Below, piece by piece: positions 37,186-40,969 of a stretch of DNA of 64,000 bases; the stretch's first letter is position 1; each line of letters begins with the position of its first letter. The translations under genes and the position numbers were made by a program. Source of the stretch: Zafaria cholistanensis (GTDB lineage Bacteria; Actinomycetota; Actinomycetes; Actinomycetales; Micrococcaceae); the NCBI RefSeq assembly GCF_008580665.1, contig NZ_BKDJ01000001.1, positions 62,001 to 126,000 on the forward strand. Direction: 5' to 3'. Below the pieces are notes generated by a model. The model worked only from the letters and a program-made list of their open reading frames with translations. It searched no databases and was not told the origin of the DNA.

Positions 37186-37748
37186 CCCGTCTCCTGATCA
37201 TTGGCCCGCCCGGTTCCGGGAAAGGCACGCAGGCCGCCCGCATCTCCGAGCGGCTTGGCGTCGTGGCCATCTCCACCGGGGACATCTTCCGCGCCAACGT
37301 CAAGGAGCAGACGCCGCTGGGCGTCGAGGCGAAGAAGTACATCGACAACGGCGACTTCGTACCCGACTCGGTAACCAACAACATGGTCCGCGACCGCCTG
37401 GCCCAGCCGGACGTGTCCGAGGGCTTCCTGCTTGACGGCTACCCGCGCACCTCCGCCCAGGTCGACGAGTTGGACTCCATCCTGGCCGGGAACGGTCAGG
37501 CCCTGGATGCGGTGCTGCAGCTGACCGCCGACGACGACGAGCTGGTGGCCCGCCTGCTCAAGCGCGCCGAGATCGAAGGCCGCGCCGACGACACCGAGGA
37601 CGTCATCCGCCACCGCCTGGCCCTCTACCACGAGCAGACCCAGATCGTGGTGGACCGCTACCTGGACCGCGGGATTGTCCGCAAGGTGGACGGCATCGGC
37701 CCCATCGACGAGGTCACCGACCGCGTCCTGGACGCCCTCAAGGCCTAG
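37182..37748 (+). CDS. adk: Adenylate kinase
   Basis: Interconverts ATP+AMP and 2 ADP; 188 residues. GPPGSGKGT (8-16) is the P-loop, and FLLDGYPRTSAQ is the AMP-binding signature. The LID region is short and lacks the zinc-binding cysteines, which is normal in actinobacteria. It overlaps secY by 4 bp, and a hairpin separates it from map. Confidence 0.97.
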   Translation: MTRLLIIGPPGSGKGTQAARISERLGVVAISTGDIFRANVKEQTPLGVEAKKYIDNGDFVPDSVTNNMVRDRLAQPDVSEGFLLDGYPRTSAQVDELDSILAGNGQALDAVLQLTADDDELVARLLKRAEIEGRADDTEDVIRHRLALYHEQTQIVVDRYLDRGIVRKVDGIGPIDEVTDRVLDALKA

Positions 37749-37777
37749 CGCCCCGCCCGTGCTGCCGCGTGCGGCAC

Positions 37778-37813
37778 CGGAAGCCCCCGCCCCCTGCCGG
37801 GCGGGGGCTTCCG
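37778..37813 (+). terminator. Hairpin between adk and map
   Basis: Perfect 13-bp stem CGGAAGCCCCCGC (37778-37790) with 37801-37813. There is no T-run. It is a terminator or partial attenuator ahead of map. Confidence 0.6.
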
Positions 37814-37860
37814 CCGTCGTGCGGGATAATTGGAACCAGACCAACCGGGAGGAAAGCACC

Positions 37861-38691
37861 ATGGCGTTCGGCCAGCCGAAGATCGAGTACAAGACCAACA
37901 GCCAGATCCTGAAGATGCGGGAGGCCGGGCTGGTCCTGGCCGAGGCGCTGGACGAGGCGGTGGCCGCGGCTACGGTCGGCACCACGACGGCGGAGGTGGA
38001 CGCCGTGTTCGCGGCCGTCCTGGAGCGCCGCGGTGCCACCAGCAACTTCAAGGGCTACCACGGCTTCCCCGCCACCATCTGCGCGTCCGTCAACCACGAG
38101 GTGGTCCACGGCTTCCCGTCCGGCTACGTGCTGCAGGACGGGGATGTGCTCAAGATCGACGGCGGCGCGATCGTGGACGGCTGGCACTCCGACTCGGCCC
38201 GCACGGTCATCGTGGGCCAGGCCGACCCGGAGGACCAGCGGCTGAGCGACGTCACCGAGGAGGCCATGTGGCGCGGTATCGCGGCGCTGGCGAACGCGCG
38301 CTTCGTGGGGCAGATTGGAGAGGCGATCGACGACTTCGTCTCCGCCGTTCCGGGCAAGCCGCTGGGCATCCTGGAGGACTACGTCGGCCACGGCATCGGC
38401 TCCGAGATGCACCAGGCCCCCGACGTGCTCAACTACCGCTCCGGCCACCGCGGCGCGCGCGTGAAGCCGGGCCTGTGCCTGGCCATCGAACCGATGCTGG
38501 TACGGGGAAACATCGAGACCCGGGTGCTGGAGGACGACTGGACCGTGGTGACTACGGACGGTTCGCGCGCGTCCCAGTGGGAGCACACCGTGGCTGTGCA
38601 CCTGGGCGGGATCTGGGTGCTCTCCGCGCACGACGGCGGCGTGGCCGGGCTGGCGCCGTTCGGCGTCGTGCCGTCCCCCATCCAGCCGTAG
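37861..38691 (+). CDS. map: Methionine aminopeptidase, type I
   Basis: Removes the initiator methionine from new proteins; 276 residues from ATG 37861 behind GGGAGGAAAG. The five metal ligands are all present: Asp100 (KIDGGAIVDG), Asp111 (WHSDSART), His177 (GHGIGSEMHQ), Glu210 (LAIEPML) and Glu241 (WEHTVAV). Normally infA follows, but here a nuclease gene unit starts 14 bp after the map stop. Confidence 0.96.
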   Translation: MAFGQPKIEYKTNSQILKMREAGLVLAEALDEAVAAATVGTTTAEVDAVFAAVLERRGATSNFKGYHGFPATICASVNHEVVHGFPSGYVLQDGDVLKIDGGAIVDGWHSDSARTVIVGQADPEDQRLSDVTEEAMWRGIAALANARFVGQIGEAIDDFVSAVPGKPLGILEDYVGHGIGSEMHQAPDVLNYRSGHRGARVKPGLCLAIEPMLVRGNIETRVLEDDWTVVTTDGSRASQWEHTVAVHLGGIWVLSAHDGGVAGLAPFGVVPSPIQP

Positions 38692-38719
38692 CCGCCGGAA
38701 GTGTCCCGGAGGCGGGCCA

Positions 38720-38778
38720 ACGCTGTCCCCGGATTGGACGCTCAGGGATGACCTAAGCGTTCAATCCGGGGACAGCGT
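38720..38778. repeat. Palindrome at the 3' end of the DUF559 gene
   Basis: Arms 38720-38742 and 38756-38778 (23 nt) pair at 22 positions plus one G-T. The 13-nt loop contains the stop codon of the DUF559 gene, so the right arm codes for its last residues. It lies between convergent map and the nuclease gene and may also act as terminator. Confidence 0.9.
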
Positions 38779-39700
38779 CTCCTTGCGCCTCCACGATGGC
38801 CTCGCGAATCAACTGGCACGCGCGGGTGAAGGAGGTGCGCAGGTCCTCCCGCCCAAGCTTGAAGTAGCGCCAGCGCGCCCTGTCGAAGTAACCGTCCCGC
38901 CGGTTGTCGCTGGCCTGCTGGGCGGGCGTGCGGTGATGCTCGCCGTCGTACTGGATGGCGATGCGGTACCTGCGATAGCCGAGGTCGGCCTCGGGAGAGT
39001 TCCTGTCGGCCGGGTTCAGCCTGACCTGCAGTTCGGGCTCAGGAAGGCCGCTTCGGACCAGGGCCAGCCGGAGCATCGTTTCGGGGGGTGAGTCCGAACC
39101 CACCCTGACATCCTTGAGGGCGGCGCGCGCTCGCGCAGTGCCGGGCACGTTGGGATGGGCGGTGAGCAGTTCGGCCATCTGTCCGGGCGTCGACCACCGC
39201 TCGAACTGCAGTTCGCGACCCCACCGGGGGAGCCGCACCAGCTGGTCACCCAAAACCACGAGGGCGTCGTGCTCGAGCGTGCCGGCGAGGTCGAGCCACG
39301 TCCGGGCAGGGGTGGATACGGGGATGCCCTGCAGGGTGGAGACTTCGCCGTCCAGCACCAGCGGGCGGTGGCATACCAGGCCGGACAGCTTGACCTGGGG
39401 TTGTTTTCGGGCCCGGCTGATATGAAGGTCACCGGGACGCCGGAAGCGCGGCGGAAGCCAAAACTCGTGGAGGAGTGCGGCCGTCAGGTGCGAGGCCCAA
39501 ATGCCGGGATAGAGCCCAACGAGGCACTCGAGCACTGCGCGCAGGTCGGGTTCCCCCGGCCCGTGAAAGAACACCGGCCCGACGACGCGCCGAACATCGG
39601 AAGCGTCCAGCCGGCGACGCGTCACCCCCAGGCTCCGCGCCCGGGCCAGGGTGAAAGGCCGGTGGCGGAGTTGCTGGGGGAGTGGGGACGGCGTGCGCAT
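38753..39700 (-). CDS. DUF559/PD-(D/E)XK endonuclease-like protein with AbiEi-type N-terminus
   Basis: Protein of 315 residues from ATG at 39698-39700 (a longer in-frame start at 39868 would run through the upstream palindrome and is rejected). The N-terminal part (about 15-48, FTLARARSLGVTRRRLDASD) resembles the winged-helix domain of AbiEi-type antitoxins. The C-terminal part has a nuclease-like core: PEADLGYRRYRIAIQYDGEH (Glu237, Asp239, Asp252, Glu254) followed by HRTPAQQASDNRRDGYFDR, as in DUF559 and Vsr-like proteins. Function is unknown; DNA cleavage is inferred. No toxin partner is adjacent. Confidence 0.75.
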   Translation of the reverse strand: MRTPSPLPQQLRHRPFTLARARSLGVTRRRLDASDVRRVVGPVFFHGPGEPDLRAVLECLVGLYPGIWASHLTAALLHEFWLPPRFRRPGDLHISRARKQPQVKLSGLVCHRPLVLDGEVSTLQGIPVSTPARTWLDLAGTLEHDALVVLGDQLVRLPRWGRELQFERWSTPGQMAELLTAHPNVPGTARARAALKDVRVGSDSPPETMLRLALVRSGLPEPELQVRLNPADRNSPEADLGYRRYRIAIQYDGEHHRTPAQQASDNRRDGYFDRARWRYFKLGREDLRTSFTRACQLIREAIVEAQGDAVPGLNA

Positions 39701-39777
39701 GGCACATTGATAGCCGACTTTGGCCGCCGCCGCGGACGTTTTCCACAGCCTCCGGCTCCTGCCGGGCATGCACAGGA

Positions 39778-39836
39778 ACGCTGTCCCCCGATTCGACGCT
39801 TCGGTCCCGTCATTGCGTCGAATCGGGGGACAGCGT
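39778..39836. repeat. Palindrome upstream of the DUF559 gene
   Basis: Perfect 22-nt arms (39778-39799 and 39815-39836) with a 15-nt loop. The arms share ACGCTGTCCCC.GATT.GACGC with the palindrome at 38720-38778. It lies between divergent genes, so a terminator role is unlikely here. Confidence 0.92.
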
Positions 39837-39851
39837 CGCCTCCGGGGCCGA

Positions 39852-39881
39852 TTGGCGGAATCGGGCAAAGCCCGGTAGGCT
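39852..39881 (+). promoter_or_regulatory. Putative infA promoter
   Basis: TTGGCG (39852-39857), 18-bp spacer, TAGGCT (39876-39881). It begins six bases after the end of the candidate inserted unit. The leader is about 130 nt long and contains CTTGGGGG at 39948-39955. Confidence 0.5.
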
Positions 39882-40019
39882 TATGCGTTGGTTGTCTCTA
39901 TGCCTGTGCCCAAAACGCCAACGGGGTTCCCCGCGGGGTGTTGCGGGCTTGGGGGCAGGGGAGAACCGGAAACAAAAACCGTCGGGACGTCCGTCCTGGC
40001 ACAAACGTTAGCGGAGGAT

Positions 40020-40241
40020 ATGGCCAAGAAAGAGGGTGTCATCGAGGTAGAAGGCACCGTGTCGGAGGCACTGCCCAACGCGATGTTCCGCGTTGAGCTT
40101 CCGAACGGGCACGTTGTGCTTGCAACTATCTCGGGAAAGATGCGTCAGCACTACATTCGGATCCTCCCCGAGGACCGCGTAGTGGTGGAACTCAGCCCGT
40201 ACGACCTTAACCGCGGCCGTATCGTCTACCGCTACAAGTAA
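40020..40241 (+). CDS. infA: Translation initiation factor IF-1
   Basis: OB-fold initiation factor of 73 residues that sits in the 30S A site. [20 protein letters not shown] and [20 protein letters not shown] are diagnostic. ATG 40020 follows GCGGAGGAT. rpmJ comes next. Confidence 0.97.
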
Positions 40242-40325
40242 AGACTTCCGCTCCCCGCGCACGCGCAGGGAGCGAAGGTAGTTACGTCAGCTCAATCAAA
40301 CACAGCAACCGCAAAGGAGAAAACC

Positions 40326-40439
40326 GTGAAGGTTAACCCTAGCGTGAAGCCGATCTGCGATAAGTGCAAGGTGATCCGCCGTAACGGTCGGGTCATGGTG
40401 ATCTGCGAAAACCCACGCCACAAGCAGCGCCAGGGCTAA
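40326..40439 (+). CDS. rpmJ: 50S ribosomal protein L36
   Basis: Very small 50S protein of 37 residues, from GTG 40326 behind [28 protein letters not shown] and [13 protein letters not shown] show the zinc-binding set Cys, Cys, Cys, His of the C+ form. It is placed between infA and rpsM, as usual. Confidence 0.95.
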
Positions 40440-40594
40440 TTTCCCGCACGGGAAGTAAGACCTAGCGCGTAGTTATCAACACAGGCAGCTCAGCGTCCAC
40501 TACGCGGGACGCACACCCCCGGCACGGAGGCCGGGGACCCGGAAACGGGGACGGGCTGCTTCAGACCTCCGCAAAACGAAAGTAGACAACCAAT

Positions 40595-40969
40595 ATGGCT
40601 CGTCTCGCTGGCGTAGACATCCCGCGCGAAAAGCGCGTGATCATCGCGCTTACCTACATCTACGGCGTGGGCAAGACCCGTGCAGAGCAGACCATCGCCG
40701 AGACCGGGATCAACCCCGACACCCGTGTCAAGGACCTCACCGACGCTGAGCTGGTTCAGCTGCGTGACTACATCGAGGGCAACTTCAAGGTCGAAGGCGA
40801 CCTTCGCCGCGAAGTTGCTGCCGACATCCGCCGCAAGGTCGAGATCGGCTCCTACGAGGGCATCCGCCACCGCAAGGGCCTGCCGGTCCGCGGTCAGCGC
40901 ACCAAGACCAACGCTCGTACCCGCAAGGGCCCGAAGCGCACCGTCGCCGGTAAGAAGAAGGCCCGCTAA
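40595..40969 (+). CDS. rpsM: 30S ribosomal protein S13
   Basis: 30S head protein contacting P-site tRNA and forming bridge B1; 124 residues. [34 protein letters not shown] and [19 protein letters not shown] are diagnostic. First in the rpsM-rpsK-rpoA-rplQ run. Confidence 0.97.

Follow-up and report, generated by a model that had tools for sequence, protein, structure and literature searches.

Genes and palindromes at the map–infA locus

The window (the whole 64-kb stretch of DNA analysed) carries, between map and infA, a single minus-strand gene for a probable nuclease, flanked by two palindromes that have the arm ACGCTGTCCCC.GATT.GACGC in common. The features of the locus are as follows.

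37861–38691, plus strand: map, left neighbour (reading frame; name from the preliminary description)
38705–38714: outer CCCGGAGGCG, one half of a 10-bp inverted repeat around the unit (sequence)
38720–38778: left palindrome, at the 3′ end of the gene; 27-bp arms, 93% paired, 5-nt loop
38753–39700, minus strand: nuclease gene, 315 amino acids (reading frame); TAG stop at 38753–38755, within the left palindrome
39706–39712, minus strand: TATCAAT, possible −10 element directly before the start codon (judged by eye)
39739–39747, minus strand: DnaA-box-like TGTGGAAAA, at −47 from the start codon
39778–39836: right palindrome, upstream of the gene (about −78 to −136 from the start); 22-bp arms, 100% paired, 15-nt loop
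39837–39846: outer CGCCTCCGGG, other half of the 10-bp inverted repeat (sequence)
40020–40241, plus strand: infA, right neighbour (reading frame; name from the preliminary description)

The preliminary description had singled out the two palindromes with their common arm, and they are indeed the strongest hairpins in the window, ranking 1 and 2 among 17 that score at least 13; three first-order Markov controls yielded 1, 0 and 0 hairpins at this threshold. One lies upstream of the gene and the other at its stop codon, which it contains as previously stated, between the convergent map and nuclease genes. The upstream palindrome (39778–39836) is a candidate operator and unit end. With up to three mismatches allowed, the arm occurs at these four places only in the window genome, which encodes no paralogue of the nuclease at E 0.01. 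Known RNA families gave nothing at gathering score across positions 37600–40700, and two weak microRNA matches coincide with the left palindrome.

The distance between map and infA is 1328 bp in the window genome and would be 211 bp if the unit were removed. We found infA in 39 genomes, including this one, and obtained 30 loci, 29 of them from relatives. Map is collinear and within reach in 18 of these 29, and in 17 of the 18 the gap is an ordinary 111–261 bp (205 bp in G017, whose map is 86% identical); in the other 11, no collinear map was found in the stretch compared. The nuclease has no tblastn match at E 1e-3 in any of the 29 infA loci. The prevalence of short, empty junctions makes the unit look inserted, as the preliminary description had proposed for this compact junction. 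On these comparisons the unit was gained in the window lineage or lost elsewhere, gain being the simpler reading; no target-site duplication was seen by eye at map–infA.

Two relatives have other sequence at this place. In the 18th collinear relative (G009, L185), map and infA are separated by 1309 bp of different sequence, which neither matches the nuclease in tblastn nor contains a hairpin of score 15. Upstream of infA in G006 (L184) lies a distant AbiEi/DUF559-like frame of about 305 amino acids (likeness judged by eye), also with no hairpin of score 15: a second gene of the general type at this junction.

Structure and conservation of the protein

The predicted structure of the window protein (pLDDT 88) comprises an AbiEi-like half (about residues 3–199 of 315) and a Vsr/EDxHD-like nuclease domain (about residues 202–307). 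The AbiEi antitoxin 6y8q matches residues 3–199 of the model with Z 12.1 and an r.m.s.d. of 6.5 over 177 residues, and Rv2827c matches with Z 8.3. Residues 204–307 are most similar to I-Bth0305I (3r3p; Z 11.1, r.m.s.d. 2.6 over 96 residues), followed by NGO0050 (Z 10.6) and Vsr (Z 9.4), with TnsA as a weak match (Z 6.9). Foldseek E-values were weak for this model, the best being 0.02. As modelled, the protein is an AbiEi-like half fused to a predicted nuclease resembling Vsr and I-Bth0305I, which bears out the earlier view of an AbiEi-like N terminus joined to a nuclease core.

Profile searches agree on the N-terminal half: the PADLOC AbiEi profile matches the window protein (E 2.1e-6) and all 12 family members tested. 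A Pfam scan of these 12 at E 0.01 returned DUF559 (10/12), MTES_1575 (8/12) and DUF2726 only, the first two as weak matches, whereas the sole Pfam match of the window protein itself, to MTES_1575 (E 0.0065), is below the curated gathering score; the earlier label ‘DUF559-type’ fits the family better than the window copy, to which it applies weakly. None of the 12 matched PHROGs, and NCBIfam gave no match for the window protein and a weak one, PRK09767.1, in 2 of the 12.

Eight residues (S204, E207, R211, D239, Y251, G253, H256 and R268) are invariant in all 96 aligned members, and position 252 is D in 71 and E in 25. A five-residue core that we had guessed (207, 239, 252, 254 and 255) is intact in only 17 of 96, since positions 254 and 255 vary. 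The resemblance to the EDxHD enzyme I-Bth0305I and to Vsr consists in the C-terminal fold and the invariant E207, D239 and H256; in contrast to those enzymes, the nuclease here is encoded by a free-standing gene, has another DNA-binding half and comes with its own repeats. In 11 close pairs dN/dS is 0.07–0.21, which indicates that the protein is kept.

According to PMC7319586, AbiEi and Rv2827c each bind their own promoter at 23-bp inverted repeats separated by 3 or 13 bp, and the upstream palindromes of the present family are similar in size and place to the operators described there. On this analogy we infer that the N-terminal AbiEi-like half reads the arms. Most of the promoters have a further element in common: 73 of 96 family genes, compared with 0 of 1874 control start codons, are preceded by TGTGGA[TAC]AA at −50 to −43. 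We take this motif to resemble a DnaA box, and the likeness suggests that expression may be coupled to replication.

Paired repeats across the family

Twelve relatives from named genomes sit at other loci, most with a locus-specific repeat on both sides. Of 197 family genomes, 134 encode at least one relative of the nuclease, and single genomes encode as many as nine. A survey of 102 loci, in a sample that favours the best matches, gave 104 parsed entries, which include the window copy, three duplicate loci and two stop-broken genes counted as two pieces each (L039 and L051). A flank repeat common to both sides at a score of at least 16 is found in 72 of these 104 genes or pieces, compared with 1 of 400 control frames; at a score of at least 14 the counts are 82 of 104 and 11 of 400. 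The controls were 400 of 572 reading frames from the same loci, each begun at its first M or V, no more than an approximation to the true start. Later tests used the 96 entries left after removal of duplicates and of those shorter than 270 amino acids. The preliminary description had proposed to seek other DUF559 genes bounded by the same arms; genes bounded by repeats are numerous in the family, with arms that differ among clades. Its idea of a small inserted one-gene module holds in that the palindromes go with the gene; it has to be modified in that the unit belongs to a large family, many members of which stay at one locus.

The 22 remaining genes or pieces have no common flank repeat at score 14, among them L112, L127, L128 and L132, four of the five other members of the window protein’s clade. 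Its nearest sampled relatives are 47–49% identical, and some of their units are without common arms. Across the phylum, nuclease matches occur in 41 of 246 genomes; in other families, orders and classes, a repeat score of at least 18 was reached by 10 of 27 genes (28 loci), compared with none of 278 mismatched pairs at 16 or above. Six plasmid or phage records contain matches, and the three relatives examined from these all have paired repeats. One, L320 (MT837503.1, an unverified phage scaffold from faeces), is 30% identical and has paired flank repeats; its record, 6.7 kb long and labelled bacteriophage, may be misassigned bacterial DNA.

The repeats differ in sequence among clades and come in two layouts. 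Paired palindromes are about 57–64 bp long, with 20–25-bp arms around a short loop. In helically phased arrays the repeats point inwards from both sides of the unit and recur every 32 bp (CTCTCTCAC type) or roughly every 21 bp (GGGGTCA type, in which some members deviate from 21). These spacings are close to whole turns of the double helix, and arrays differ between close pairs by about one to three whole units. Given that related units differ in layout, the working unit is likely to be the arm itself, read by the protein as double-stranded DNA, with hairpin formation not required. Solo 32-bp arrays also occur away from the nuclease (L027, 5235–5320; L028, 5239–6001; L029, 4237–4965). Each begins with the hairpin GACGCTCCCCCACC..GGTGAGAGAGCGTC, in which one arm is identical to the array unit, and those in L028 and L029 border gene gain or loss.

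The preliminary description had suggested a search for the window palindromes together. Sought at up to two mismatches in 395 family genomes, the arm matched in 17 genomes besides its own (4 with the reversed control), always singly and never paired as in the window, the two matches in G124 being on different contigs. Some of these matches may exceed chance.

Repeat type goes with nuclease type

Arms are similar (score of at least 12) in 15 of 215 non-syntenic pairs whose nucleases are at least 50% identical, compared with 4 of 2574 below that identity; these pairs are not independent, and rho is 0.17. Three repeat types, grouped by us and covering 22 of 96 rows, when held against each other, each require one change on the nuclease tree. 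The GGGGTCA type (9 rows, including two with the variant GGAGTCA) forms a clade, as do the GGGGTCACTT palindromes (4 rows), and the 9 CTCTCTCAC rows fall within one wider clade, mixed with rows of other repeats. The sequences indicate that repeat type and nuclease type go together. Similar units also exist at unrelated loci, as in L044 and L047: their nucleases are 77% identical and their arms match with a score of 25, and there is no similarity in the 1.2-kb flanks compared.

Dispersed copies of the repeats

Dispersed cognate repeats, of which the window genome has none at up to three mismatches, are seen in several relatives. The pattern CTCTCTCAC-N23-CTCTCTCAC is present in 6 of 197 genomes, with no match for the reversed control: G062, G136 and G151 contain 50, 108 and 18 matches, and three other genomes 1–3. 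In G062, G136 and G151 the units are flanked on either side by the CTCTCTCAC repeat, each copy in G151 having one mismatch. Of 18 genomes tested for GGGGTCA-N14-GGGGTCA, 7 contain it, with 12 to 232 matches, and each of these has a unit flanked by GGGGTCA; with the reversed control there were 3, 5 and 1 matches in G134, G149 and G185. The highest count, 232, is that of G006, in about 4.0 Mb. Four genomes of the GGGGTCA genus (G196, G161, G185 and G149) are without dispersed 21-bp arrays, and units were parsed in the first three of them. That of G196 carries GGGGTCA on its upstream side alone, spaced at 32 bp, and those of G161 and G185 are without it. Among the genomes tested, CTCTCTCAC and GGGGTCA arrays reach double figures only where there is a matching unit.

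The third type behaves differently. The palindrome arm CGCGGGGTCACTTANGGCCC, at up to two mismatches, was found in 8 of 16 genomes, with one reversed-control match each in four. Twenty sites fetched from G163 and G151 are 63-bp palindromes with sharp ends; their arms are near-identical within each genome and differ between the two, and their loops are of one length and unrelated sequence. A close cognate nuclease is present in G163 (its own) and G136 (73%), with G019 and G090 at 64%. One palindrome arm is present in G151 (41 matches), G009 (22), G186 (18) and G085 (16), in which a nuclease more than 56% identical to the cognate is absent. These four genomes, with palindromes and no close cognate gene, speak against a strict link between gene and repeat. 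Abundance largely follows the cognate gene for two repeat types, G196 being an exception, and fails to do so for the third. The preliminary description held that palindromes scattered without the gene would count against a module; cognate repeats are so found in relatives, and we read them instead as pointing to a system resembling the REP/RAYT pair.

Probable gain, loss and inversion

At one orthologous gap compared by eye in 20 other genomes, 8 have the palindrome type just described, 3 a different type and 9 none; the different type resembles the repeat of an Arthrobacter plasmid unit (CCCAACTAG.TCGCATTT). Solo palindromes at 82–85% identity were too diverged for insertion footprints, and we hence compared 200 kb of G019 (C3:600001–800000) and G046 (C1:3154001–3354000), which are 92% identical over aligned parts. 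Among 30 palindrome entries picked by eye from both genomes, seven are without anchors and three have more than 1 kb between the anchors in the other genome; the remaining entries represent 12 orthologous palindromes present in both. The interior is reverse-complemented in 3 of these 12 (by eye). In the three large differences, a gene and palindromes in one genome correspond to one palindrome in the other, although in one of the three the right-hand palindrome alone is clear. Palindromes border variable gene content in this pair. The genes between or beside the palindromes in L278–L297 appear by eye to be ordinary ones (3-hydroxyacyl-CoA dehydrogenase-like, SDR-like and oxidoreductase-like).

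The clearest case of such a difference concerns a unit itself: G019 and G090 have palindrome–nuclease–palindrome where G046 has one palindrome, the body of which is like the left copy and the right edge of which continues like the right copy (by eye). The neighbour gene of this unit type also flanks it in another genus (L100 compared with L062 and L063), which makes loss of the unit in G046 likelier than its gain. No defensible target-site duplication was found in G019, G090 and G046 or in the 92% pair, and the flanks in most comparisons are too diverged. In 29 of the 184 pairs with syntenic flanks the unit is inverted. Judged by eye, these pairs may trace to four or five events, and re-insertion in the opposite direction may be an alternative to inversion in place. 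The other 155 syntenic pairs are in the same orientation, many units thus staying at one locus, which suggests that movement is rare.

Comparison with known systems

According to PMC2817692 and PMC3116915, the RAYT gene is flanked by two repeat copies, and the repeats go with the gene, are dispersed between genes and are genome-specific. The window gene and most family genes likewise lie between two repeat copies whose type goes with the gene, and in several relatives the repeats are dispersed between genes and genome-specific. In contrast to REP/RAYT, the enzyme combines an AbiEi-like half with a Vsr/EDxHD-like nuclease and is not a Y1 (HUH) tyrosine transposase; the repeats are either palindromes of about 57–64 bp, whose loops in the type examined are constant in length and unrelated in sequence, or tandem arrays in helical phase; and the promoter has a DnaA-box-like site. 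The AbiE type IV toxin–antitoxin systems (AbiEi; Rv2827c) resemble the N-terminal half by profile and structure and resemble the unit in operator geometry, that of 23-bp inverted repeats with a short gap (PMC7319586). Unlike AbiE, the gene has map and infA as neighbours and no AbiEii nucleotidyltransferase toxin gene, a nuclease domain being fused instead, and its repeats also lie at the 3′ end of the gene and, in relatives, at dispersed sites.

The only gene of the unit encodes the AbiEi–nuclease fusion, and no DDE, HUH or serine/tyrosine recombinase of an insertion sequence was found in it; nor does a DNA methyltransferase of a restriction–modification system adjoin it, the neighbouring frames being map and infA. 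The ends of Tn7 contain several binding sites at both ends in inverted orientation. The unit resembles Tn7 in its multi-site inverted ends and in the weak match to TnsA, and differs in having one gene only and no adjoining DDE transposase. In the open-licence literature we found no work linking DUF559 or AbiEi–nuclease fusions to flanking or dispersed repeats, a description outside it being possible, and the titles and first lines of the abstracts of papers naming DUF559 suggest no association with repeats.

A REP-like reading and its rivals

The arms at both ends, a protein with parts expected to bind and to cut DNA, the dispersed repeats, the reduction of a unit to one palindrome and the inversions are together best explained by a self-contained repeat-plus-nuclease unit that would work like a REP/RAYT pair with an unrelated enzyme; we judge the odds of this to be about even. 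The AbiEi-like half would bind the arms in the way that AbiEi antitoxins bind 23-bp inverted repeats, and this binding would both repress the nuclease gene and bring the nuclease to every copy of the repeat. The nuclease would then cut or nick the DNA at the arms or close to them, probably as they become exposed or extruded during replication, the DnaA-box-like promoter site tying expression to replication, and repair of the breaks would copy, flip or delete the repeats and whatever lies between two of them. Spreading or rearrangement of the repeats by the nuclease is an inference. The simplest case is that of the window, with one unit at map–infA and no dispersed copies. A bolder version, which we put forward tentatively and at somewhat less than even odds, is that a REP-type system evolved a second time, independently, in this family. 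Its Vsr-like nuclease, guided by the AbiEi-like half and produced in time with replication by way of the DnaA box, would recognize its own arms and, by cutting them, spread, flip and delete palindromes throughout actinobacterial chromosomes, along with the genes that lie between them; arm sequence and protein specificity would change in concert.

The main rival has the binding step in common with this reading and differs on whether the enzyme acts on the repeats. The protein would be a self-regulated nuclease with a housekeeping or defence role, its arms serving as operators of the AbiEi type and as terminators, and the dispersed repeats, not spread by the nuclease, would serve the host as terminators or binding sites (forming a regulon or marking the chromosome). 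AbiEi proteins repress their own promoters through 23-bp inverted repeats (PMC7319586), and the window palindromes lie upstream of the gene and at its stop, where it converges with map. Repeats spaced 21 or 32 bp apart are well placed for proteins bound to a single face of the helix, the arms are conserved and the fixed-length loops are not (20 sites), and many units stay at one locus. Such a nuclease would, however, leave unexplained the close relatives in which a unit in one corresponds to a single palindrome in the other, the different palindrome types at one site, and the near-perfect arms of about 25 bp in tens of genome-specific copies, and we consider it rather unlikely. Alternatively, the palindromes and arrays might be made and kept by something else, such as replication slippage, template switching or another element, with the nuclease gene a passenger like other genes. 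Ordinary genes lie between or beside palindromes at three sites where the other genome has a single palindrome, and palindromes occur without the cognate nuclease. Template switching or cruciform repair can yield loop inversions and matched arm changes without this nuclease, and known replication errors would explain the loop inversions observed. A passenger would not account for a link to this gene family far above controls (72/104 compared with 1/400), for the agreement of repeat type with nuclease type, or for CTCTCTCAC and GGGGTCA arrays that, among the genomes tested, reach double figures only in those with a matching unit; we consider it improbable. That the catalytic domain is closest to the homing endonuclease I-Bth0305I, and that occupied and unoccupied sites exist (map–infA; G019 and G090 compared with G046), would fit a selfish gene of the homing type, whose nuclease cuts the unit-less allele and is copied in by repair. 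The repeats occur at both unit ends and elsewhere, so the unit would not destroy its supposed site, and the best unoccupied allele, that of G046, looks by eye like a deletion product, with the body of the left palindrome and the right flank. Homing is the least probable of these explanations, with little chance of being correct.

If the REP-like reading holds, a large set of genes annotated as ‘DUF559’ or ‘AbiEi domain’ would gain a likely function. The enzyme linked to RAYT-type REP repeats is a tyrosine transposase; were an unrelated nuclease to have a similar role, the origin of short actinobacterial palindromes would become testable. The many natural pairs of protein and arm make protein–DNA specificity directly testable, as does the locus that is occupied in two species and has one palindrome in a third for gene loss driven by palindromes.

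Further features around the unit

The preliminary description had also noted CCCGGAGGCG inverted at both edges of the unit. The 10-bp repeat is present in the window, CGCCTCCGGG being its other half, and is not general in the family. Outer inverted repeats average 5.42 across units and 5.51 in mismatched flanks, and reach 8 or more in 4 of 31 palindromic units and 64 of 930 mismatched combinations; an outer inverted repeat as a general feature of the unit was rejected, the values being close to those of the mismatched-flank controls. We regard the pair CCCGGAGGCG/CGCCTCCGGG as a local feature, perhaps a split terminator stem and perhaps due to chance. Beyond infA, positions 40522–40627 of the window match the Alpha operon ribosome binding site weakly (E 0.031, below gathering score), and the gene at 40595, downstream of this match, is presumably rpsM (13th-type ribosomal protein).
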